Source: Hyphomicrobiales bacterium (GTDB lineage Bacteria > Pseudomonadota > Alphaproteobacteria > Rhizobiales > Beijerinckiaceae). From it: a stretch of DNA of 55,041 bases. A model generated the notes under the pieces. It saw nothing but the letters and a program-made list of their open reading frames with translations, was not told the origin of the DNA and made no database searches. The translations under genes and the position numbers were made by a program. Of the stretch, positions 41,069 through 52,202 are shown in pieces. The stretch's first letter is position 1. Every line of letters starts with the position of its first letter. The stretch is taken from contig CANGPL010000014.1 in NCBI GenBank assembly GCA_947455725.1, forward strand, positions 1 through 55,041. The letters are read 5' to 3'.

Positions 41069-41734
41069 ATGAGCACCAGCGAAATTCAGGCACGCGGTGA
41101 AGTCCTGTTGCGGCCACGGCGTTATGTGACCCATTTCGTAAAGCGTGTGCTTGATGTTGTCGGTGCAGCCCTTCTCCTCGTTCTGCTTTCGCCCGTTTTT
41201 CTTATCGTCAGTATTCTTGTGGCCCTAGACGGTGGGCCCGTGTTTTACCGTCACCAAAGAATTGGCCGAAATGGTGTTACCTTCGGCTGCCTTAAATTCC
41301 GCACCATGATCTTAGGCGCGGACCGCTGCCTCAATGAATATCTCGCTTACCACCCCGCGGCCGAACAAGAATGGGACCGCGAACAAAAGCTCGCTTTTGA
41401 TCCCCGCATTACGGCCATCGGGCGATTTTTACGCCGCACAAGCCTTGATGAATTACCGCAATTAATGAATGTGCTTTACGGCGATATGAGCCTCGTCGGA
41501 CCGCGTCCGGTAACCCAAAGCGAGCTCCGTCATTACGGCCATGCGAGTGCCGATTATCTCTCCATTCGTCCGGGTATTACCGGCCTCTGGCAGATCAGTG
41601 GACGCAATGACGTGTCTTATGCCCAGCGTGTTGCTCTTGATCAATCTTATGTCGCAACACTGAGCCTATGGCGCGATCTTTTGATCCTGCTCAAAACACC
41701 CATGGTGGTCTTTTCAAAGAGAGGTGCGCGATGA
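41069..41734 (+). CDS. ExoY-type undecaprenyl-phosphate sugar-1-phosphate transferase
   Basis: Starts polysaccharide repeat-unit assembly by placing a sugar-1-phosphate on the lipid carrier at the inner membrane. In 221 residues it has one hydrophobic helix (about 24-52), the GPVFYRHQRIGRNG motif (56-69), KFRTM (76-80), and DELPQLMNVLYGDMSLVGPRP (127-147, the catalytic/phosphate-binding region). This is the short ExoY-like form rather than the long WbaP/WcaJ form. The start has GGGGG upstream. First gene of the plus-strand polysaccharide operon; the next gene overlaps its stop (ATGA). Confidence 0.92.
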   Translation: MSTSEIQARGEVLLRPRRYVTHFVKRVLDVVGAALLLVLLSPVFLIVSILVALDGGPVFYRHQRIGRNGVTFGCLKFRTMILGADRCLNEYLAYHPAAEQEWDREQKLAFDPRITAIGRFLRRTSLDELPQLMNVLYGDMSLVGPRPVTQSELRHYGHASADYLSIRPGITGLWQISGRNDVSYAQRVALDQSYVATLSLWRDLLILLKTPMVVFSKRGAR

Positions 41735-42588
41735 ACGATATATCCAACATCAATCTACAGCCGCGCGTTAAAAACGGTGTGAACGTTTTGATGTCGACGC
41801 ATAAGGGAGAGAACGGCAAAAACCTCGCTGAAGCGCTTGAAAGCATTTATGCGCAGACTCTCCCACCTGATCGTGTGGTCTTAGTTTTAGACGGACATGT
41901 AGGCACCGATCAGCATGATGTTATTGGCACCTATGGCGCTGATAGCCGCGGCCCCGATTTAACGATTGTATCGCTGCCATCGAATAGCGGCTTAGCAAGC
42001 GCACTAAACGCAGGACTTGCCTATTGCGATGGCGAATTCGTGATGCGCATGGACAGCGATGATATTTGCATGCCGGATCGGTTGGCGCTGCAACTCGCTT
42101 ATTTCAATGAGCATCCGAAAATGGATGTCATTTCAAGCTGGGCCAGTGAGTTTTCTGCCAATGATACAACAGAAAAAATGAAAGTCTCACCGACCGAACA
42201 TGACGCGCTCGCAATGGCATTGCGGTGGCGAAATGTCATCGCCCATTCCGCGATTTTAATCCGCACCGAAGCGCTTAAAAAAGTCGGCGGTTATCGGGCT
42301 GATTTTGGTCTTTTGGAAGATTATGATTTGTGGGTAAGGCTCCTAACAGCTGGCTCGCAATTCCATGTCCTTCCTAAAGTTCTTTTGAGGATTAGAACAA
42401 GTCTCGCCCAACGCGGCCGCCGCGGCAATCTTGCTTATCTGCGCAATGAAATTCGCTTCCGTTCAGAGTGCCTGAGAATAGGCTTCCTCACACGCTCCCA
42501 ATTCGTCGCAACCTTGTTCCTCTATGCGATGTTTCGCTTAGCAGGACCGATGCTCCGAAATCAATTTTATGCCCTCGCCAGAACATAA
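41731..42588 (+). CDS. Family 2 glycosyltransferase (AmsE-like)
   Basis: A 285-residue inverting GT-A glycosyltransferase that should add a sugar to the lipid-linked repeat. It shows NVLMSTHKGE, ALESIYAQTLPPDRVVLVLDG, SNSGLASALNAGL and the DxD-type metal site MDSDD (Asp108, Asp110). A weakly hydrophobic C-terminus may contact the membrane. It overlaps the ExoY-like gene by four bases. The linkage and sugar cannot be read from sequence. Longer frames upstream are inside the previous gene. Confidence 0.88.
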   Translation: MNDISNINLQPRVKNGVNVLMSTHKGENGKNLAEALESIYAQTLPPDRVVLVLDGHVGTDQHDVIGTYGADSRGPDLTIVSLPSNSGLASALNAGLAYCDGEFVMRMDSDDICMPDRLALQLAYFNEHPKMDVISSWASEFSANDTTEKMKVSPTEHDALAMALRWRNVIAHSAILIRTEALKKVGGYRADFGLLEDYDLWVRLLTAGSQFHVLPKVLLRIRTSLAQRGRRGNLAYLRNEIRFRSECLRIGFLTRSQFVATLFLYAMFRLAGPMLRNQFYALART

Positions 42589-42658: not shown

Positions 42659-43633
42659 ATGGCTGACGTTCAAATCAACACCGCAACTTTTGACAAATAT
42701 GCTCAAAAGTCGACGAGCAAGGATGCGCGCCTTTCTGCTGTATCCTATGAAGATAAAAATAAGCGCTCACCCCTGACGCGCTTTGCTAGCGGATTTATCC
42801 TCGTTGTTATGTGTAGCCTTGCCGCATGGCCTTTCTTGCCGCGCCGCTACGAGTCAACCGTTACGCTGATTTTGCGCGCTACCGATGAGGCTGGCCCCAT
42901 CAGTCACGGCCAAGCCTTGAAGCAGCTCTTGGACGAAGGTGCCGTACAATCCGAATTGGATGTGATGGCATCTTTGCCCTTATCCGCTGATGTGATGGAT
43001 CGCCTTAATTTGAACACCGATCCTGAATTTACGAAATCAAGCGGCAGCCTTTTCAATCGAAGCGCCACAACGCTTTTGGAACCCGCGCGTGAGGTTCAAA
43101 ATCATGTTGTCGTTTCCCGCGATCGTCGTTCCTATACCGTTCGCCTCGGCTATTGGTCGAGTGATCCCGCCAAATCCGTCCGTATGGCCGATGCGCTAGC
43201 TACCGCCTATCTCGATCGGCAGGTTCAACGCAAACTTGATAACAGCGCGCAATTGATCGACCGTCTTCGTTCACGCTTAGTAGAACTCGCCACCCGCGAG
43301 GCCGAGCTTCGTCGTGTAACCGATGGTGAGACAGCCACAAGCATTAAAGTTGCCGACCCGTCGGACGCGCGCACAACGACAGCGATCGAATTCGCCAGCA
43401 TTAGGCAGAAATTAGTCGATGCAACGCAACACCATAGTGAAATTGGCCCCGATGCCGAACGTATTTCGGATGCCGTGATGCCGCTCAATGCAACCTTTCC
43501 TAATCCGGTTATGATGACCCTTGCAACGCTGATATTTGCTACCCTCTTAGGCTTTGCCTTTGCATGGCCGGCCTTACGCTTCCGGTCTGATGATCAAATT
43601 CAGTCGATCGACGGCGCAAAAGGTGTGAAATGA
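42659..43633 (+). CDS. Wzz-like polysaccharide co-polymerase without kinase domain
   Basis: Chain-length regulator of the PCP family, 324 residues. It has a short cytoplasmic N-terminus, TM1 about 42-60 (ASGFILVVMCSLAAWPFLP), a periplasmic domain with a probable coiled coil (about 195-225, rich in Arg/Leu/Glu), and TM2 about 278-300 preceded by the proline-bearing FPNPVM, the usual PCP ending. The cytoplasmic tyrosine kinase of ExoP/Wzc is absent and none is encoded nearby. It overlaps the polymerase gene by four bases (ATGA). Confidence 0.82.
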   Translation: MADVQINTATFDKYAQKSTSKDARLSAVSYEDKNKRSPLTRFASGFILVVMCSLAAWPFLPRRYESTVTLILRATDEAGPISHGQALKQLLDEGAVQSELDVMASLPLSADVMDRLNLNTDPEFTKSSGSLFNRSATTLLEPAREVQNHVVVSRDRRSYTVRLGYWSSDPAKSVRMADALATAYLDRQVQRKLDNSAQLIDRLRSRLVELATREAELRRVTDGETATSIKVADPSDARTTTAIEFASIRQKLVDATQHHSEIGPDAERISDAVMPLNATFPNPVMMTLATLIFATLLGFAFAWPALRFRSDDQIQSIDGAKGVK

Positions 43634-44922
43634 GCATTGCTGACTATTTCTTATCGTCCGATTTTCGGCGCGCTAACTATGGCGAGCGAAAGGGCTCGTC
43701 ATGGGGGTTTAATCAGCGAACCTTCGTCATAGCGCTGATTGCAATTATCACTTTCATGTTAAGCATGAGTTTTGGACTCCGTGCACAAGGTGATGTTGGA
43801 CTTAACTTTCAAAACGGGGCGAAGCTCTTAATTTGGGTTGCCCTCGTCAATTGGGCGCTATTCGAGTGGCGCGTTATTCTACCAACGCTTATGCAGCCAG
43901 CCGGATATCTTCTCTGCTTTATAGGCATCTATGCCGCATGTTCGGCCCTATGGTCGCCAGTGCCGCTTTATACGTTAGGCTCCGCCTTAGGTTGGCTTGC
44001 ATATATTGGCTTAGCGTGCCTCGCCGTCAAATATGTAGAGGTGGATGTCGTTTTAGCAACGATCTTCTGGTCACTCTTTAGCTTCATTGCCGTAAGCTTT
44101 GCGCTCGCTTTCGTAATGCCCGATACGGTATGGATGCCGCCATCCGATGTCGAAAACGTGTTTCGATTTGTCGGCCTCACCGATCATCCGAATAATTTCG
44201 GGCATTTCTCGGGTCTCTATCTCGTTTTCACAATGGCGTGTGTGTCACGAAAAATTATTTCGACTAAATGGGCTCTGTTTCATGGTCTCATTGGCTTAAC
44301 GGCGCTGGGTCTATCGGGTGATCGTACCATCGCTTTTGTGCTACTATTGATTACGATCCTCGTGGCGATGCGCTATTCGGTGATCGCGCGCTATATAGCA
44401 TTCGGCGTCGCCATACCGCTCACAATTGTTTTTTTCCTCTATGCCGCTGGTGTGGGCCCTGATCTTCAAAGCTTTATGGAATCCATGAGCCGCACCGGTA
44501 ATGCCAGCGAGATCATGACATTAACGGGGCGAACGGAGATCTGGTCTGCCGCGATAGATCGTATTTTTGAAAAGCCAATCTTTGGCTGGGGTTTTAATGG
44601 CACCGAGCAGCTGATGCTCTCGAGCGCACCTTTACGCTTTTATGGCAATCCGGTGAATGCGCACGAGATGTATCTGCAGATTGCCTTATCGCTTGGCGTC
44701 GTTGGGTTACTTCCCAGCATCGTTTTAGTCGCTCTTCCAATTCACGCTTATTTCCATAATCCAAAATTTTATCGCGACATCATCCTTGGCCTCATTTTAC
44801 TCAATGGGCTTACCGAGGCCGATATTTTCGCCACTCCCGTCTTAAGCGGCTTCGTTGCATTCTGGCTTTTATTGCTGGATGGCGCGCCATCACCTTCTTT
44901 TGCTTACCATGAAGAGGCGTAA
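43630..44922 (+). CDS. Wzy/O-antigen-ligase-like polysaccharide polymerase
   Basis: A 430-residue membrane protein with about 10-12 helices and the O-antigen-ligase/Wzy_C pattern: a large periplasmic loop containing GRTEIWSAAIDRIFEKPIFGWGFNG, in pieces, followed by NAHEMYLQIALSLGVVGLLPS. In this setting it most likely polymerises lipid-linked repeat units in the periplasm (ExoQ-like) rather than ligating O-antigen. Sits between wzz-like and GT4 genes; the GT4 gene begins 3 bases after its stop. Confidence 0.86.
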   Translation: MSIADYFLSSDFRRANYGERKGSSWGFNQRTFVIALIAIITFMLSMSFGLRAQGDVGLNFQNGAKLLIWVALVNWALFEWRVILPTLMQPAGYLLCFIGIYAACSALWSPVPLYTLGSALGWLAYIGLACLAVKYVEVDVVLATIFWSLFSFIAVSFALAFVMPDTVWMPPSDVENVFRFVGLTDHPNNFGHFSGLYLVFTMACVSRKIISTKWALFHGLIGLTALGLSGDRTIAFVLLLITILVAMRYSVIARYIAFGVAIPLTIVFFLYAAGVGPDLQSFMESMSRTGNASEIMTLTGRTEIWSAAIDRIFEKPIFGWGFNGTEQLMLSSAPLRFYGNPVNAHEMYLQIALSLGVVGLLPSIVLVALPIHAYFHNPKFYRDIILGLILLNGLTEADIFATPVLSGFVAFWLLLLDGAPSPSFAYHEEA

Positions 44923-44925
44923 TTC

Positions 44926-46128
44926 ATGACCAGTTCCGAACACCACATTCAGGGTTCACCTGAAGGTCGCCGCGTTCTCCTCTGGCACTGGGGGAAGGAA
45001 GGGGCAGGGGCTAAATTTTCAGGCGCATTGGCGCGTGGCTTACGCGATTTACCAGGAACGGAAATCGCCATCTCCGCTGCAACCTCATCGGATCTAGCAC
45101 GCGATATCAGTGCTAGCACCGATTTGCCGCTTCAGTCTGTCAAAATTTTCGAGGGCAACAAAGCTTCTCTGTCTGGCAAATTAGCCGCAGGCTTTGCCTT
45201 ATTAGGTCTACCGCGTATCGGCGCCGAATTTTCGGGCGCTATGGAAGAATTTCGTCCGGATGTCGCCCTGTGCGCCTTTCAGTCGATATGGGATCTTGCT
45301 GCGTTGCCTGTATTGCGTCGCGCAGCAAGTCGATTTGTCTTGGTGCTGCACGATGCGGAGCCGCATCCGGGTGATCGCTACCCGATGCGCAGTGCTGTCA
45401 TGGGGTGGGAGGTTAAAACCGCTGACGCTTTGATCGCCCTTAGCGATCACGTGGCGAGAGAAGCCATTCGCTTATATGATTTTCCTGCGGATCGGATTTA
45501 TACAATCCCGCACGGCGCCTTCACCTTTAGTGATGAAATCATCTCGCCACGCCGTTTTCCAATTAATCGGCCTTTCAAGCTTTTGTTCTTCGGCCGTATC
45601 GTTGCCTATAAAGGGCTTGGTCTCTTGCTCGATGCATATAAAATCCTCTTATCACAAGGCTGGTCGTTTGAATTATCCATTGTCGGCTCCGGCGATTTAT
45701 CGCCCTACCATGACGCGATAAAGCAGCTTGTCGGCGTAACCATTCGCAATGGCTGGGTCGATGACACCGAGATTTCAGACGCCTTGGTCGATGCCGATGC
45801 TGTCGTATTACCCTATATTGAAGCGAGCCAATCGGGTGTTGCAGCCTCTGCCTTTTCGGCAGCCCTTCCGGTAATAGCAACGCCCGTCGGCGGCTTAATC
45901 GAGCAAGTAACGGATGGTGAGACCGGCTTGATCGCAAAGGAAGTAACAGCGCAAGCCTTGGCCGACTCCATTATGCGCCTAGTTACGTCACCGAAGCTCT
46001 ATGAAGAATGTTCCAAAGGTGCACTTAACCATGCCCGAATTGCGCTTGATTGGGGTGTTATTGCACGTCGTGTCGGTGGCATTATCGATGAAGTAGCAAG
46101 GCGTCCGCGACGCGGTGCGGAAACATGA
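44926..46128 (+). CDS. Family 4 glycosyltransferase
   Basis: A 400-residue retaining GT-B glycosyltransferase. The C-terminal donor-binding half is clear: LLFFGRIVAYKGLGLLLDA, SIVGSGDLSPY, RNGWVDDTEISDALVDADAVVLPYIEASQSGV (shown in order) and ATPVGGLIEQVTDGETGLI with the nucleotide-binding glutamates. The N-terminal half has the acceptor domain starting RRVLLWHWGKEGAGAKF. It probably adds the next sugar to the repeat unit. Its stop overlaps the start of the flippase-GH16 gene (ATGA). Confidence 0.9.
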   Translation: MTSSEHHIQGSPEGRRVLLWHWGKEGAGAKFSGALARGLRDLPGTEIAISAATSSDLARDISASTDLPLQSVKIFEGNKASLSGKLAAGFALLGLPRIGAEFSGAMEEFRPDVALCAFQSIWDLAALPVLRRAASRFVLVLHDAEPHPGDRYPMRSAVMGWEVKTADALIALSDHVAREAIRLYDFPADRIYTIPHGAFTFSDEIISPRRFPINRPFKLLFFGRIVAYKGLGLLLDAYKILLSQGWSFELSIVGSGDLSPYHDAIKQLVGVTIRNGWVDDTEISDALVDADAVVLPYIEASQSGVAASAFSAALPVIATPVGGLIEQVTDGETGLIAKEVTAQALADSIMRLVTSPKLYEECSKGALNHARIALDWGVIARRVGGIIDEVARRPRRGAET

Positions 46129-48326
46129 AGCCTATTGTGATCGTGGATGGAGAAACAACCCAGAAGCCAAACAGCCATTCGCGTTTTAATCACATCAGAA
46201 ATTGGCGTGCGCTGACTTATCTTAATCATCCCGCAGCCTATGCCATTGGTGCGGCGATTGTCACGGCACTAAGCGCCGGGACGACTTTTGTCGCGCCCAT
46301 GCTTTTGGGGCCTGAGTCCTTTGGTGCGTTTGCGCTTCTCATCACCTTCTTCCAGCTCGCGGCGCGCAGTGATTTTGGTTTGTCTCAACTCGCTGATCGT
46401 GAATTAGCCGTAGGCACTAACGATCAATATGGCGCTAAAGATATTCTAGAAGCCCGATGGCTATTAGGCGGTATCTTCTTCTTAATCGTAACGCCGATCT
46501 TTATTTTATTGATGAGCGGCAATACAGGTCTATCTCCCATTGATATAGCCATTACGATTTTTGGCGGCATCGCGGCTATGATCGCGGTGGGTCCGGTAAC
46601 AATTTATCGCGCATCGTCTAAATTATGGGAATTCACAGCACTCGCACTGGCACTTCAACTCGGTATGACGTTTCCCCGTATCATCGGCTTGGTCTATGGG
46701 GGAACAACAGGTTGTTTCATCATTTTAATGCTTTGGTACGCAAGTTTTGCGCTTCTTTTTGCATGGCCGAGAGGAGCACGTTTTTTTAATGTTAGACCGT
46801 ATCTCAAATTACTACGCTCAGCTCTACCGCTATTCATATTTTCAACGATGTGGCTGATTTATCTCTTCGCCAATCGTTGGATTTCATCGTCACTATCGAG
46901 TGCATGGGATTTTGGTCTTTTCGCCTTTGGTGCCAATCTGGCCTATATCGTCATTGGTACAATGGGCGCCATTGGTCAGGCCTTTTATCCGAAAATATTA
47001 ACGGAAATTGGTCATTCTCCGAAAGGGGAGGGTTCAAAAAGTCTAACGCGGCAAACACAGTATCTATTAATCGGACTTTCACTGCCGCTTGCCTTAACAC
47101 TGCCCTTTGCACCCTATCTGATTAATTCGATATTTCCCCGATTTTCAGCGGCTATTGATACAACCATACTCCTCAGTGTAAGTGCCGTTCCGCTTTCGAT
47201 TGCGACATGGCTTTTGCCAATTACGATAGCGCTTTCTAAAAAGCCATTACGCGAGACAGCGCTTTTAATGGTGCCGGCATTTCTTTCCCTCATTACTTTC
47301 ATGTATTTCGGGAACGAGCTTGCAGGCATTGCAGGTCAGGCAATGGCCAACACGGCGTCTGGTACCGTGGCGACCCTATTATTGCTTGGGTTATTATGGC
47401 TACAAGGAGCATTCAATGGTCGACAATTGATTTATCTTGTTGCCGCCACCGGCACCGTTGCTTTACTGCTCACCTATGAAGCCACTAGCCTCATGGTGAG
47501 GCCATTAGAGACATCGCAGTATTTTGGCGGTCCACCGGTCGAAAAAGCTGCCCTTCAACCGTCGCAAGATCCAAAGTCGGGAATGCGTCTCGTCTTCTCT
47601 GAGGAGTTTGAGCGGCTCCGGCTCGTTGGCGAGTCAGGCGGCGGTGTATGGGAGCCCGCCTATCCTTGGGGCGCGCGCAGCAACACGGATAATCGCGAGC
47701 TGCAATATTATGTTGATCCGCGCGCCGGCAAAGAGGCGGATGCGTTAAAGGAGGTAAACCCGTTTCACATCAAAACCGGCATTTTATCAATTTCAGCCAC
47801 GAGAGCTGACGGATCGCAGACGGCCTATACCCGTGGCTTACCTTATTTATCCGGAATGTTGAACACATCGAAATCCTTTGCGATGACCTATGGCTATATC
47901 GAAATGCGCGCGCGATTGCCCAAGGGTGCCGGTTTATGGCCCGCCTTGTGGCTCTTGCCCGTCAGCGGCGGTTGGCCTCCTGAAATAGACGTCATGGAGG
48001 AAATCGGCAATCGAACCGATCGTTACTATGGTTCGGTTCACTCTAATCGGGGTGGCTCACGGTATGAAACGGTGATCCCGATCGACACCGTAGATCTATC
48101 CCGTCACTTCAACACATTCGGATTAAAATGGGATTCCCACACGATTGATTGGTACTTCAACGGCTTGAAAGTTGCCACAGCGCCAACACCGCCTGATTTA
48201 AATCAGCCAATGTATGTGTTGATTAATCTAGCCATTGGCGGCAATTGGGCAGGCCAGCCGGACGAAGACACATTATTTCCGGCCCATTTTGATATTGATT
48301 ATATCAAAGCCTATTCATTACCGTGA
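46125..48326 (+). CDS. Wzx-like flippase fused to a GH16 beta-glucanase domain
   Basis: One uninterrupted 733-residue frame encodes two proteins that are normally separate. Residues about 35-455 form a polysaccharide flippase of the MOP superfamily, with about 12 hydrophobic helices (GAAIVTALSAGTTFVAPMLLGPESFG is the Wzx-like start, shown by its ends) plus one extra at 435-452. Residues about 487-733 are a glycoside hydrolase family 16 domain: LVFSEEF, GYIEMRARLPKGAGLWPALWLLP and the catalytic motif EIDVME with nucleophile Glu620, Asp622 and acid/base Glu625, then WYFNGLKVA and NLAIGGNWAG. ExDxxE is the beta-1,3-glucanase/laminarinase form. An odd number of helices would put the enzyme in the periplasm. 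No good ribosome-binding site is seen at the junction (Met457, Met487), so a separate GH16 product is unlikely. Confidence 0.9.
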   Translation: MKPIVIVDGETTQKPNSHSRFNHIRNWRALTYLNHPAAYAIGAAIVTALSAGTTFVAPMLLGPESFGAFALLITFFQLAARSDFGLSQLADRELAVGTNDQYGAKDILEARWLLGGIFFLIVTPIFILLMSGNTGLSPIDIAITIFGGIAAMIAVGPVTIYRASSKLWEFTALALALQLGMTFPRIIGLVYGGTTGCFIILMLWYASFALLFAWPRGARFFNVRPYLKLLRSALPLFIFSTMWLIYLFANRWISSSLSSAWDFGLFAFGANLAYIVIGTMGAIGQAFYPKILTEIGHSPKGEGSKSLTRQTQYLLIGLSLPLALTLPFAPYLINSIFPRFSAAIDTTILLSVSAVPLSIATWLLPITIALSKKPLRETALLMVPAFLSLITFMYFGNELAGIAGQAMANTASGTVATLLLLGLLWLQGAFNGRQLIYLVAATGTVALLLTYEATSLMVRPLETSQYFGGPPVEKAALQPSQDPKSGMRLVFSEEFERLRLVGESGGGVWEPAYPWGARSNTDNRELQYYVDPRAGKEADALKEVNPFHIKTGILSISATRADGSQTAYTRGLPYLSGMLNTSKSFAMTYGYIEMRARLPKGAGLWPALWLLPVSGGWPPEIDVMEEIGNRTDRYYGSVHSNRGGSRYETVIPIDTVDLSRHFNTFGLKWDSHTIDWYFNGLKVATAPTPPDLNQPMYVLINLAIGGNWAGQPDEDTLFPAHFDIDYIKAYSLP

Positions 48327-51116
48327 TGTCGTTTGTTTAGCAGCATGTTTAAGCTGCTCAGTAACGAGTTGAACAAGCGAATCGCGGTTAGGGTTTCGTA
48401 ACATCGAGTGGTGGTTTCCGTTAACGGTGTGAACCGTTACCTCTCGAACATAGCTGCTCCATCCAAGATCTTTCGGAGCGCCCGGTCTTTTTTGCTCGGA
48501 CACAAAAAGCTGAGCGTCTATTGGCATAAGGTTGCGTGGCGATTGCGTGATCCAGCTTTCAAGAGCACGCGATTGCAAGGCTTCCCAGATCGCGTTGCGA
48601 AGTGAAAAGCGAAGGGTCATCGGCGCCCATCGATATGTATATTTGGAAAGGCGAGTTAAAACTGGCCGAAGCTTCGGATGGCTTAAAATGATTCCGGTCG
48701 TTTCAATCGCTTTTTCAAAGGCCGTTAATCGCTCGACTTGACCTTTTTGGCGCAATCCGAATTTAAAATTTCTCGGATTTAATGTTAGCGCTGATGAACG
48801 ATGAACATTATTATCGAGAATGCCCAATAGCTTTATTTCCCGACCTTGTTCATGGAGGCTCTTAGCCGTCAAATAGGCAACCGACCCGCCTAGTGAATAG
48901 CCGATTAGATAGATAGGGCCACTCGGTTGAATTTGCGTAATGGTTTCATGCGTTGCGGCGACCATATCGAAAATACTATCCGCGCCATTGATCATATCTT
49001 GGCAAGAAGGAAATTCGATCAAATGAACATTGGCGTAAGACGATAGCGCTTGTCGAAAGGCTGCAAGGCTCGGCCCTTCGCCAGTCAGACCAGGTAATAA
49101 AAAGAGATTTGGCTTTTCACGATCATCGTCTTGTTCAATCTTACAATATGTATTTTTATTGATAAGTACCAAAATATCACTTGGCGTCATATCCATATGA
49201 AAATCTGAAATTTTGAGGCTACGCTCCAAAGCATTTTCAAGATGAAAGACAAACTTAATGAGCGATAAGGAATCGCCACCCGATGCGTCCCAACTTTTAT
49301 CCAACCGGTATGTGTTCTTTCCTAAAATATCTTGCCACTCGCGCGCGATAATGGCTTGAATAGGGTCGTTGTTATCAGATGCATCAAAGCCATTTAGATG
49401 AACGGCTTCTTCAGTGTGCTGCAAGGTTCGATCCATTACAAGCAGCGCGGTATTGTCTTGCTTACCACTCGGCAGGCGTGGAATGTGATCAACACGATGT
49501 AAGCGCGCTGGATGCAAATGCGAGGGCAGTAGCTCTCGTAAACTATGCCGAATCTTATCAATTCCGTTGTTTGAAGGTGAGCCGAGGGAGCGTTCGACGA
49601 TAAAAGCAATCAGCCGATATTGTTCGTTCTCCATCATCGTTACGATAGCTGCATCTGCGATGCCATCAAGGCCACGTAAACAAACCTCAAGCTCTGCAGG
49701 CTCCACACGCCGTCCATTGATTTTTATTTGTCGATCTTTTCGTCCAATGATTTCAAGCAAGCCATCGGGCCGCTCGCGGACGATATCGCCTGTCCGAAAA
49801 ATCCTTAAATCGGCGTGATCCGGATCGGGTATAATCAACCCGCGATCAATGCCACCATTGCGCCAATAACCCAAGGCCACATAGGGGCTTCGTATAACAA
49901 GCTCCCCTTCATCACTGTATAGATCATTTTGTGGTTCGGTGGCCTCAATCCGATAATCGACACCCGAATGGAGATAGCCGGCCGCAATGATGGGTCCGCG
50001 TAAGTCAGGATCGCGAGGCACTTCATAATAAGTCGCGGTTGTTTCCGTTGATGAATAGCTGGCTTGAATGCGGCATTCATCAGAACAGGTTGAGAAGAAT
50101 AAATCGATATCGGAAGATAAAATCCGATCACCGCCAACACGGATCATTCTGATGCTGCGGAAATCAGAACACTTCTCACCAGCGCCCGCCATCAGTGCCC
50201 GCAGGACAGCAGGCACACCATTAAGCACGGTTACGCCCTTTTCATTGATGAAAGTGCGGATGCCATGCAGACCAGTTCCATCGGGGCTTGCAAGAATGAG
50301 TTTGGCGCCAATTGCTAACGCCGTGAAACATTCGCGTGTTCCGGCAACCGTACAGGCGGAACTTAGCGGAAGAAAGACATCGTCACATGTAAATCTGCCA
50401 GAATGGATATAGTGCCGAACCCGTTCAAGCACGGCTCTTTCGTGATTAACAATTCCCTTCGGCTCGCCGGTACTTCCAGATGTGTAAAGGATAATAGCGG
50501 GCGTATCCGTATCGGGCGTTGGGCGGGATAACGGCGTTAGGTTAGACAGCGCTATATTTACTTCGCGATGAATGGCAATGATCTGATGGTCGCTTGTCAC
50601 GTGAAGATCGTTCAAATGCGCTTCTTCAATGGCAATCAGCGTCCGTAATCCAGATTTTTTAATAATGTCACGATTGCGCTCGAAGGGACTGTTCAAATCC
50701 ATGGCAATATAGGGCCGCTGTGCTGCAAGACAGGCGAGAATAGAAACATGAAGTGATATCGAATTTCGTAAAGCCAACCCAATCGCTTCTCCGTCAATCG
50801 TACGTGCTAGAATAATTTGGCTGAGGCATTCAGCGCGTTGCAGAAGTGCTTCATAGCTAATCGTTTCCTGTCCATCGTCGATCGCGATTTTTTGACCGTA
50901 AAGCTGTGCCTGTATCCGAACATACTCAATGAGGGATTTTCGCGTAAAGTCTTCCTCCAGCTCGGCCTGTTTTGAATGAGCGGGTTGATGAGGATCATTT
51001 GGAAAGTCAGGGGCTTTACGCCACAGAGTTTCATTCGTCTGCGTGATGCGTTCTGCCGTGAAACCAAGGGTAGAGAAGGTGATATCGTTACGCATGACAA
51101 GGTCTACACGATCCAT
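48318..51116 (-). CDS. A-T-TE tridomain NRPS-like synthetase (adenylation, carrier, thioesterase)
   Basis: A 932-residue enzyme with no condensation domain. Adenylation domain about 60-560: A3 YTSGSTGEPKG (211-221), A5 SYSSTETT (353-360), A7/A8 FRTGD and GRKDRQIKINGRRVE (440-472), and A10 lysine 552 in LPSGKQD. Carrier domain about 585-655 with the phosphopantetheine site GGDSLS (Ser616). Thioesterase about 670-932 with GYSLGG (Ser741), Asp768 and His902 or His903 (NGNHHSML). Aligned by eye, the place of the amino-acid-binding aspartate (FDxS motif) reads TVAG, so the activated acid may lack an alpha-amino group. ATG 51116 follows AGGA. Twelve bases after the deacetylase-like gene; its end overlaps the flippase-GH16 gene by 9 bases tail to tail. 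Confidence 0.9.
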   Translation of the reverse strand: MDRVDLVMRNDITFSTLGFTAERITQTNETLWRKAPDFPNDPHQPAHSKQAELEEDFTRKSLIEYVRIQAQLYGQKIAIDDGQETISYEALLQRAECLSQIILARTIDGEAIGLALRNSISLHVSILACLAAQRPYIAMDLNSPFERNRDIIKKSGLRTLIAIEEAHLNDLHVTSDHQIIAIHREVNIALSNLTPLSRPTPDTDTPAIILYTSGSTGEPKGIVNHERAVLERVRHYIHSGRFTCDDVFLPLSSACTVAGTRECFTALAIGAKLILASPDGTGLHGIRTFINEKGVTVLNGVPAVLRALMAGAGEKCSDFRSIRMIRVGGDRILSSDIDLFFSTCSDECRIQASYSSTETTATYYEVPRDPDLRGPIIAAGYLHSGVDYRIEATEPQNDLYSDEGELVIRSPYVALGYWRNGGIDRGLIIPDPDHADLRIFRTGDIVRERPDGLLEIIGRKDRQIKINGRRVEPAELEVCLRGLDGIADAAIVTMMENEQYRLIAFIVERSLGSPSNNGIDKIRHSLRELLPSHLHPARLHRVDHIPRLPSGKQDNTALLVMDRTLQHTEEAVHLNGFDASDNNDPIQAIIAREWQDILGKNTYRLDKSWDASGGDSLSLIKFVFHLENALERSLKISDFHMDMTPSDILVLINKNTYCKIEQDDDREKPNLFLLPGLTGEGPSLAAFRQALSSYANVHLIEFPSCQDMINGADSIFDMVAATHETITQIQPSGPIYLIGYSLGGSVAYLTAKSLHEQGREIKLLGILDNNVHRSSALTLNPRNFKFGLRQKGQVERLTAFEKAIETTGIILSHPKLRPVLTRLSKYTYRWAPMTLRFSLRNAIWEALQSRALESWITQSPRNLMPIDAQLFVSEQKRPGAPKDLGWSSYVREVTVHTVNGNHHSMLRNPNRDSLVQLVTEQLKHAAKQTTSR

Positions 51117-51128
51117 CGAAAATCCTGC

Positions 51129-52202
51129 CTATGAAATGTTAAGACGGGAACCGAAATTGCGTATCAAAAAGGGAGCACCGGATAGCATCGTATCAAGCCG
51201 CTCAATGCTTTGGAAAAACCCGTTAAGCGAAACCCTTGGCAGCGCGGTAGGCCATTGCTCATGCGCTTGATAAAGGAGACCGGGTCGCGTTGTCGTAGCC
51301 GACGCAAAGCCCAAAGCTTTGGCCATAGAGAACTCACGTGGCCCGGCATGACCTTGCGCGCCATTTGGATAAGAAAAATGACGAACAGGTTTATCTATTC
51401 GATCTTCGATAGTGGCGCGCGAACGTGCCATCTCCACCATCGCTTCCGCCGCGTGACAATGGGCTAAAACGGGATGATTGACCGTATGCGCACCAATCGT
51501 CACAAGCGGATGACGAGATAGGTCGACAATTCCGTTCCAATCAAGGCACGTCTCTTCGCTAAGCCTCTTAACGTCAACATCAGCCTGTCTCGCAAGCTCC
51601 GAAACCAGCGGCTTCACCTGATCCGCCGGAAGCTGCAAAATTCGGTCGTGGATATGTCGAAACGCTTCACGCTTTTTGGCCACATTATCGGTTGCAAAGC
51701 CGATGGGTCCGTCCGAGTCCGGGAGTGAGATGGAGGGCGATTGTTTAATTGCCTCTTCAAGCGTCAACCACCAAAGAGGCGTTAGTCGATCGGCAAAGCC
51801 TGAGGTTATAAATACCGTTGCCGGAATAGTATGTTTTTCAAAAATAGGCAGGGCGTATTCTGCCGTGTCGTAATAGCCGTCGTCCAAGGTCATAACAGCA
51901 AAATTTTCACTGTTTTTTGTACCGAGCCTTCGCAAAGCCTCGTCCATGCTGACGAAATAAAAACCGCGGGATTGGGTGTGGAGAATGGCTGCCTCTAAAA
52001 AATCAGGCGTAATTTCCAAGCCAAGATTGGGCTGAAATGAGGCCTCGCGAAAGGGCCGCACTCGATGGACCGCAAAAATCACACCGCGAGCGCCACCAAT
52101 CAGATTGAACACACGGTCAATCTTCGCCGATCTTATGGCGCGGAAGGCATAATCATACAGGCGATAGGCGGTCGGAGCCGCGTCAGTTTGCACGAGGTTC
52201 AT
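51129..52202 (-). CDS. Polysaccharide deacetylase-like protein (CE4/NodB fold)
   Basis: A 357-residue NodB-fold protein with intact metal site: the T(F/L)DDG motif as MTLDDGYYDT (Asp107, Asp108) and the H-x3-H motif in GAHTVNHPVL (His239, His243), followed by FSYPNGAQG. It would remove N- or O-acetyl groups from a sugar. Unlike exported deacetylases, it shows no signal peptide or membrane helix, so it probably acts in the cytoplasm on a lipid-linked or nucleotide-linked sugar. It is the first gene of a minus-strand operon with the A-T-TE synthetase, running toward the polysaccharide locus. Position next to that locus suggests repeat-unit modification, by inference. Confidence 0.86.
   Translation of the reverse strand: MNLVQTDAAPTAYRLYDYAFRAIRSAKIDRVFNLIGGARGVIFAVHRVRPFREASFQPNLGLEITPDFLEAAILHTQSRGFYFVSMDEALRRLGTKNSENFAVMTLDDGYYDTAEYALPIFEKHTIPATVFITSGFADRLTPLWWLTLEEAIKQSPSISLPDSDGPIGFATDNVAKKREAFRHIHDRILQLPADQVKPLVSELARQADVDVKRLSEETCLDWNGIVDLSRHPLVTIGAHTVNHPVLAHCHAAEAMVEMARSRATIEDRIDKPVRHFSYPNGAQGHAGPREFSMAKALGFASATTTRPGLLYQAHEQWPTALPRVSLNGFFQSIERLDTMLSGAPFLIRNFGSRLNIS

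Follow-up and report, generated by a model that had tools for sequence, protein, structure and literature searches.

The window analyzed here is a whole stretch of 55,041 nucleotides, contig CANGPL010000014.1 (C14) of a draft genome of a Hyphomicrobiales bacterium of the family Beijerinckiaceae (GCA_947455725.1; 2.98 Mb, 90.5% complete). On its plus strand, a gene at positions 46125 to 48326 joins a Wzx-type flippase to a glycoside hydrolase family 16 (GH16) domain. The initial annotation of this DNA had described one continuous reading frame, and this was borne out: the gene is a single uninterrupted frame of 733 amino acids with an ATG start and no internal stop, and its ATG overlaps the stop of the preceding glycosyltransferase family 4 (GT4) gene by 4 bases (ATGA). 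The flippase half (46125 to 47495, residues 1 to 457), of the Wzx/multidrug-oligosaccharidyl-lipid-polysaccharide (MOP) type, was identified by a weak profile match and a structural model and has 13 predicted transmembrane (TM) helices. The thirteenth, TM13 (47418 to 47498, residues 432 to 458), places the C terminus in the periplasm in the predicted topology. It is followed by a variable linker (47499 to 47576, residues 459 to 484), where the predicted local distance difference test (pLDDT) of the model fell below 50 at residues 457 to 480, and by the GH16 domain (47577 to 48326, residues 485 to 733 plus the stop), which was recognized by PF00722, the EglC profile, and its fold. The catalytic motif EIDVME (47982 to 47999, residues 620 to 625), holding E620, D622, and E625, is of the EXDXXE beta-bulge type.

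A search of 41 genomes, counting the window's own with 40 relatives, gave full-length matches in the window's genome, in G007 (70% identity) and G004 (56%), and in G016 of another genus (41%). The carriers of full-length versions include named Microvirga isolates and Pseudochelatococcus lubricantis. Because the assemblies of other species carry the same junction, an assembly or sequencing artefact was ruled out; no point in favor of an artefact was found, and we give this explanation practically no chance. The product of 46125 to 48326 is a real flippase-GH16 fusion protein.

The GH16 half, which the initial annotation had proposed, was confirmed by hidden Markov model search: PF00722 matched residues 560 to 713 (5e-20; 72.1 bits against a cut-off of 22). 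The NCBIfam EglC model (NF052454) matched residues 484 to 732 of the window protein (4.3e-70), and its 236.9 bits did not reach the equivalog cut-off of 700. The catalytic residues Glu620, Asp622, and Glu625 lie exactly where they had been placed and were invariant in all 19 fusion proteins, as were W605, A607, W617, P618, and H639; P606 was replaced by S in 4 of the 19. EXDXXE or EXDXE is described as the GH16 catalytic motif, and a WPA ... WPX pattern as common to GH16_3, GH16_1, and GH16_9 (PMC6827312). The fusions carry WPA (with the P-to-S change in 4 of 19), WP, and H639, which may point to the laminarinase subfamily GH16_3, although the WPA/WP pattern would suit GH16_1 and GH16_9 equally. 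Laminarinases were the nearest solved-structure sequences to the GH16 part, and Foldseek likewise returned laminarinases with the beta-jelly-roll fold; the TM-score by target was 0.71 to 0.85 in 28 of the best 30 rows and 0.42 to 0.43 in the other two, which were larger multidomain targets. With the model of the whole protein, the best 50 Foldseek matches listed were GH16 only. The domain is most likely an ExoK-like endo-beta-glycanase.

The same domain might instead, as a retaining transglycosylase and not a hydrolase, join or move chains, whether to remodel them or to attach them to an acceptor. GH16 includes a yeast glucanase/transglucosylase, according to the passage on GH16_2 in PMC6827312, and PF03935 (SKN1/KRE6) matched the window protein at 40.5 bits, above its cut-off of 30, although the other GH16 proteins scanned matched this profile too. 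The lack of a detectable outer membrane polysaccharide export (OPX) protein in the window's genus, described below, points the same way. The nearest profiles and solved structures, however, are those of laminarinases and beta-1,3(4)-glucanases, and no sequence feature singles out transglycosylation. We consider the transglycosylase quite unlikely.

A second GH16 protein, with C-terminal RTX repeats, is encoded in the window's genome (G000:C2:50326-51048; L016:1495-3048), and another of this type lies at L061:13857-15392 on the minus strand. Because of their repeats, type I secretion of these proteins is probable. A second GH16 gene near the fusion, on the opposite strand, is present in five Microvirga loci (L057, L058, L059, L061, and L062), with the RTX test covering L061.

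The flippase half gave a weak profile signal: PF01943 matched residues 44 to 290 (4.5e-6) with 26.7 bits, slightly below the cut-off of 28.2, and matched 8 of 10 aligned members at E <= 0.01. The assignment stood through the predicted structure. An AlphaFold model of the whole protein, built on 10 fusion sequences, had a mean pLDDT of 78.5 with a low-confidence linker, and the flippase half modelled alone had a pLDDT of 83.1 and a predicted TM-score (pTM) of 0.83. The crystal structures of WzxE were the best Protein Data Bank (PDB) match of the flippase-only model (E 4.3e-6), followed by MurJ and MATE proteins.

Thirteen TM helices were read from the model together with averaged hydropathy, in which 18 peaks were grouped by hand. 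Two long helical stretches, 167 to 212 and 374 to 426, were split by hand; the former is broken at 179 to 183 in the flippase-only model. With the N terminus inside, the sum of lysine and arginine was 11 to 21 in the inside loops against 0 to 4 in the outside loops in 25 of 25 sequences, with the linker omitted from the sums and two of the sequences (G399 and G005) incomplete. Because of the 13 helices and this strong positive-inside pattern, the C terminus, and with it the GH16 domain, is predicted to lie outside the cytoplasm, as the initial annotation had supposed from its helix count. An independent argument came from two relatives in which the halves are split. In G325, a separate flippase gene ends soon after TM13 and is followed by OPX and Wzy genes, and a separate GH16 gene after Wzy encodes a hydrophobic, signal-peptide-like start. 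G132 showed a similar gene order, and its separate GH16 has a twin-arginine-like start; both starts were judged by eye. Since these starts resemble signal peptides, GH16 appears to act outside the cytoplasm, and a cytoplasmic GH16 domain is disfavored by the predicted topology as well as by these exported-looking enzymes.

The extra helix, placed at 435 to 452 by the initial annotation, is present (432 to 458), but it is not peculiar to the fusion. The unfused flippases of G011 and G005, both from the window's genus, also have a hydrophobic segment aligning with TM13, as do the distant outgroups G879 and G1017, so that TM13 as a product of the fusion was rejected. TM13 is therefore a trait of the flippase lineage, fused or not, and the lineage was suited to receiving an exported domain.

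TM13 could also act as an internal signal peptide, with a signal peptidase cut in some members releasing a periplasmic GH16 enzyme, so that one gene would yield two proteins. An A-x-A motif stands right after TM13 in all four rows from genus g45 and in one of the two from genus g46, where 14 residues separate TM13 from GH16, and also in G706 and G246; the split relatives, moreover, appear to export GH16 alone. The loci whose A-x-A resembles a signal peptidase I site are L091, L093, L095, and L096 (g45), L092 (g46), L086 (G706), and L090 (G246). The motif was not enriched, however: in a crude count over an equal distance, it occurred in 12 of 19 proteins after TM13, and the six remaining outward helix ends gave 11, 11, 10, 1, 9, and 11 of 19. 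In addition, G163 has T at the position needing A, and A-x-A is missing at this place from all three proteins of the window's genus, whose linkers between TM13 and GH16 are also the longest (31 residues against 13 to 24 elsewhere). Judged from the motif, release is possible in the g45 and g46 members, and as an account of the fusion we consider it unlikely.

Next, we examined how widely the architecture is distributed. It was found in 19 genomes of 8 genus codes, namely the window's genus, Microvirga, Chelatococcus/Pseudochelatococcus, four more genera of the family, and one genus in another family of the order. Matches spanning both halves were obtained in 18 of 397 family genomes, and the order survey (397 genomes) added one further fusion, G706, from the other family. 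No fusion outside the order was found in 385 class genomes, and 339 phylum genomes gave no new fusion, with only the window's own and G706 recovered; the first look in the family, order, class, and phylum surveys scored at most 2 to 3 candidates per genome, and misses are possible. Among 281 plasmid records with a match, none covered 80% of the fusion protein. The carriers, all within the 19, include Microvirga flavescens, M. brassicacearum, M. antarctica, M. terricola, and M. alba, as well as a Chelatococcus metagenome-assembled genome (MAG), P. lubricantis, and two Hyphomicrobiales MAGs. In P. lubricantis, the search match covered only residues 10 to 406, but GH16 lies in the same frame; the G399 match starts at residue 80 at a contig end, and this genome also has a second contig piece. 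Identity falls to about 35 to 40% for the most distant members. Within genera the distribution was patchy: the fusion was carried by 3 of the 12 genomes in the window's genus, by 4 of 51 in g45, and by 5 of 48 in Microvirga (the genus of G226).

Between the window's protein and that of G007, the nonsynonymous and synonymous divergences (dN/dS) were 0.20/2.6 for the flippase and 0.18/1.9 for GH16, with a linker dN of 0.59. Besides G007 with G004, two within-genus pairs allowed both halves to be measured, this one and M. terricola with M. alba; in these two, both halves showed dN of 0.16 to 0.20 and dS of 1.6 to 2.6, and the linker dN was near 0.6. Because dS was near saturation and partly not computable (for the window and G004, and for three of four linkers), these values are indicative only.

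The survey of homologues which the initial annotation had called for thus returned the same architecture in 19 genomes, but also two split relatives and two lone flippases in the window's own genus. Among 298 family genomes, the flippase lineage was detected in 20 at E <= 1e-30; 17 of these were fused, G132 was split, and G011 and G005 had the flippase alone. The two stand-alone flippases (L025:1097-2449 and L026:1-1257, on a long branch) are followed by genes which, by their sequence, are putatively LysE-like and EamA-like. Both flippases lie on short contigs with unrelated genes downstream, and because of this a GH16 of the fusion type might still be present elsewhere in either genome. A GH16 copy of G011 grouped with the RTX-type GH16 of the window's genome in the GH16 tree.

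Mapped on a flippase tree of 25 rows, fusion status required three changes, which were read as one gain and two losses. G011 and G005, on a long branch, grouped with the window's genus (support 100/97). The root of this tree rests on two long outgroup branches. Forcing the 19 fusions into a clade of their own, apart from all split, stand-alone, and outgroup rows, which would make the split state ancestral, was rejected by the approximately unbiased (AU) test (p 0.0004). When the constraint kept out just the split pair and the outgroups, the arrangement was not clearly rejected (p 0.052). The 49-row GH16 tree placed the split copies beside those of G706, Chelatococcus, and Pseudochelatococcus (95/94); its backbone was weak, and seven fusion rows lay on the other side of it. 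A single clade of fused and split copies was not recovered, yet it was not rejected (p 0.31). On these trees, fission in the split relatives is probable, and the best fit is a single fusion with a later loss in the window's genus and, probably, a fission. Because split and flippase-only forms exist, the covalent linkage is not obligatory.

The operon around the fusion gene was then considered. The initial annotation had made the gene part of a polysaccharide operon, and its neighbors agreed with this. On the plus strand upstream are a priming phosphoglycosyl transferase (PGT; 41069 to 41734; PF02397, with a WbaP-like C-terminal catalytic domain), a GT2 glycosyltransferase (41668 to 42588; its open reading frame overlaps the previous one by 67 bases, and the true start may lie downstream), a Wzz-like chain-length determinant (42659 to 43633; a weak EpsF match of 2.1e-7 and no Pfam match), a Wzy-like polymerase (43630 to 44922; PF04932, the Wzy_C/O-antigen ligase family), and the GT4 glycosyltransferase (44926 to 46128) whose stop overlaps the fusion-gene start. 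The order is thus PGT, GT2, Wzz, Wzy, GT4, and fusion. On the minus strand follow a convergent gene for a 932-amino-acid protein resembling a nonribosomal peptide synthetase (NRPS), with AMP-binding, carrier, and thioesterase parts (48318 to 51116), and a polysaccharide deacetylase gene (51129 to 52202; PF01522). Of the 18 other fusion loci, all have Wzy, 17 have Wzz, 16 have PGT and 16 GT2, 15 have the deacetylase, and 10 have GT4; some loci are cut by contig or stretch ends, and duplicates of L060 and L062 were counted once. L058 and the split locus L084 have a second glycosyltransferase of another family (PF13704). Full-length relatives of the NRPS-like protein occurred, among the loci compared, only in two loci of the window's own genus (L055 and L056); L063 gave a partial AMP-binding match. 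In genus g46, one open frame matched both GT2 and Wzz, a possible fusion of these two (L092:8488-10977 on the minus strand and L094:2241-4742 on the plus strand).

A Poly_export match, the sign of an OPX (Wza-type) exporter, started 99 to 129 bp past the fusion match in G163, G098, G122, G303, G055, G264, and G706, and equally past the separate flippase match in the split G325 and G132. In G016 it lay on the opposite strand at a distance of 2.5 kb, in G073 on the same contig at 15.8 kb, and in the five Microvirga genomes and G246 on other contigs. An OPX was thereby found in 17 of the 21 relatives tested, which are all 17 carriers or split relatives outside the window's genus (G399 left out). 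With PF02563, no OPX was found in the window's genome or in G007, G004, G011, and G005 of the same genus, and G007 and G004 are 98% and 100% complete, respectively. Because of this negative search, the window's genus seems to run the locus without the usual outer membrane exporter.

The fusion, its conservation, its fold, the predicted GH16 orientation, the conserved operon, and the intact catalytic residues were computed here; we infer that the GH16 domain is active, that the polymer of its own locus is the substrate, and that the tether places the enzyme at the assembly site. We hold it probable, though by no means assured, that the protein is the flippase of a Wzx/Wzy surface-polysaccharide locus which holds an active GH16 endo-beta-glycanase on the periplasmic face, where it cuts the polymer of its own locus. 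The flippase half would bring lipid-linked repeat units over to the outer leaflet for polymerization by Wzy, and the tethered GH16 would cut beta-linked bonds in the polymer near its site of synthesis, which would lower the chain length or clear over-long or misrouted chains. This mechanism is likely because of the families involved and by analogy with ExoK/ExsH and PrmQ; the separate enzymes ExoK, PrmQ, and AlgL have such a role at other loci or have been proposed to have it. The initial annotation's idea that GH16 trims or transglycosylates the growing chain and so couples export, polymer length, and remodelling is a hypothesis.

Several points weigh against this account. The tether has proved dispensable in evolution, being split in G325 and G132 and with the flippase alone in G011 and G005, and the locus is patchy even in the window's genus, at 3 of 12 genomes. 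The topology is a prediction on a 10-sequence model with two long helical stretches divided by hand, and the linker has low confidence in the model, so that no fixed geometry backs cutting at the flippase exit. The genome's second, RTX-type GH16 may do the main trimming. Finally, no OPX was found with PF02563 in the window's genus, which puts in doubt the exit route of the polymer and what GH16 meets there.

The rival explanations are not all mutually exclusive, nor are they exclusive of the tethered glycanase. One of them bears directly on dispensability: the GH16 domain may only clear polymer stranded in the periplasm, with the flippase link serving for co-expression alone. The probable fission and the loss show that the link can be dispensed with, and AlgL is described as a free periplasmic enzyme which is dispensable for alginate production (PMC5099689). 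Against such housekeeping, the fusion was kept over deep divergence (about 35 to 40% identity) and across 8 genus codes, and we grant it a modest chance. A bolder proposal is a flip-and-cut enzyme, in which GH16 at the flippase exit would act on the still lipid-linked polymer and decide its fate; in the window's OPX-less genus, it would be a transglycosylase that takes the chain off undecaprenyl diphosphate and passes it to an acceptor in the envelope, in place of the usual export route. We regard this as very improbable.

If the tethered glycanase is correct, export and polymer trimming may be joined in one protein in some alphaproteobacteria, and the fusion suggests chain cutting at the inner membrane beside Wzx and Wzy in these bacteria. 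It would offer a lead to chain-length control in Wzx/Wzy pathways, and a flippase lineage with an outward C terminus would be useful for mapping. Several polysaccharide loci encode degrading enzymes, and it is disputed whether these belong to the assembly machinery or scavenge freely, AlgL being one example (PMC5099689); a natural covalent link between flippase and glycanase, together with natural split and single versions, makes this question testable.

Finally, we compared the fusion with known systems. It resembles the WzxE/Wzx flippases of the MOP type in fold, with WzxE as the best PDB match, and in its operon with PGT, Wzz, Wzy, and glycosyltransferases. Typical Wzx proteins have 12 helices and a cytoplasmic C terminus, whereas the fusion has 13 predicted helices, an outward C terminus, and an enzyme domain. 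The Wzx of Pseudomonas aeruginosa, as mapped, has 12 helices, and its C terminus is placed in the cytoplasm because a C-terminal green fluorescent protein fusion was functional and fluorescent (PMC3412221). EglC, ExoK, and ExsH of Sinorhizobium are separate proteins which are not known to be joined to a flippase. The GH16 of the fusion is closest to the EglC profile, below its cut-off, and is fused to the flippase where the ExoK type is a separate exported enzyme. ExoK and ExsH are described as producing low-molecular-weight succinoglycan (PMC4916376). AlgL alginate lyase, too, comes from a biosynthesis locus and degrades polymer in the periplasm, the compartment predicted for the GH16 of the fusion; unlike the fusion, it is a lyase described as a free protein, in a paper with no mention of a flippase (PMC5099689). 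PrmQ is a GH16 protein encoded in the promonan Wzx/Wzy exopolysaccharide cluster of Sphingomonas sp. LM7; it is predicted to hydrolyze promonan during secretion, and deletion of prmQ turns mucoid colonies rugose (PMC11340318). It shares with the fusion a GH16 encoded within a Wzx/Wzy cluster but has its own gene with a signal sequence, and the Wzx there is separate (prmI) (PMC11340318). No description of a flippase-GH16 fusion was found among the open PMC papers listed in full-text searches, with subscription papers and supplements outside the search, and the main text of the GH16 subfamily paper held zero occurrences of flippase or transmembrane (PMC6827312). The parts are of known kinds, and their union in one conserved protein appears to be new.

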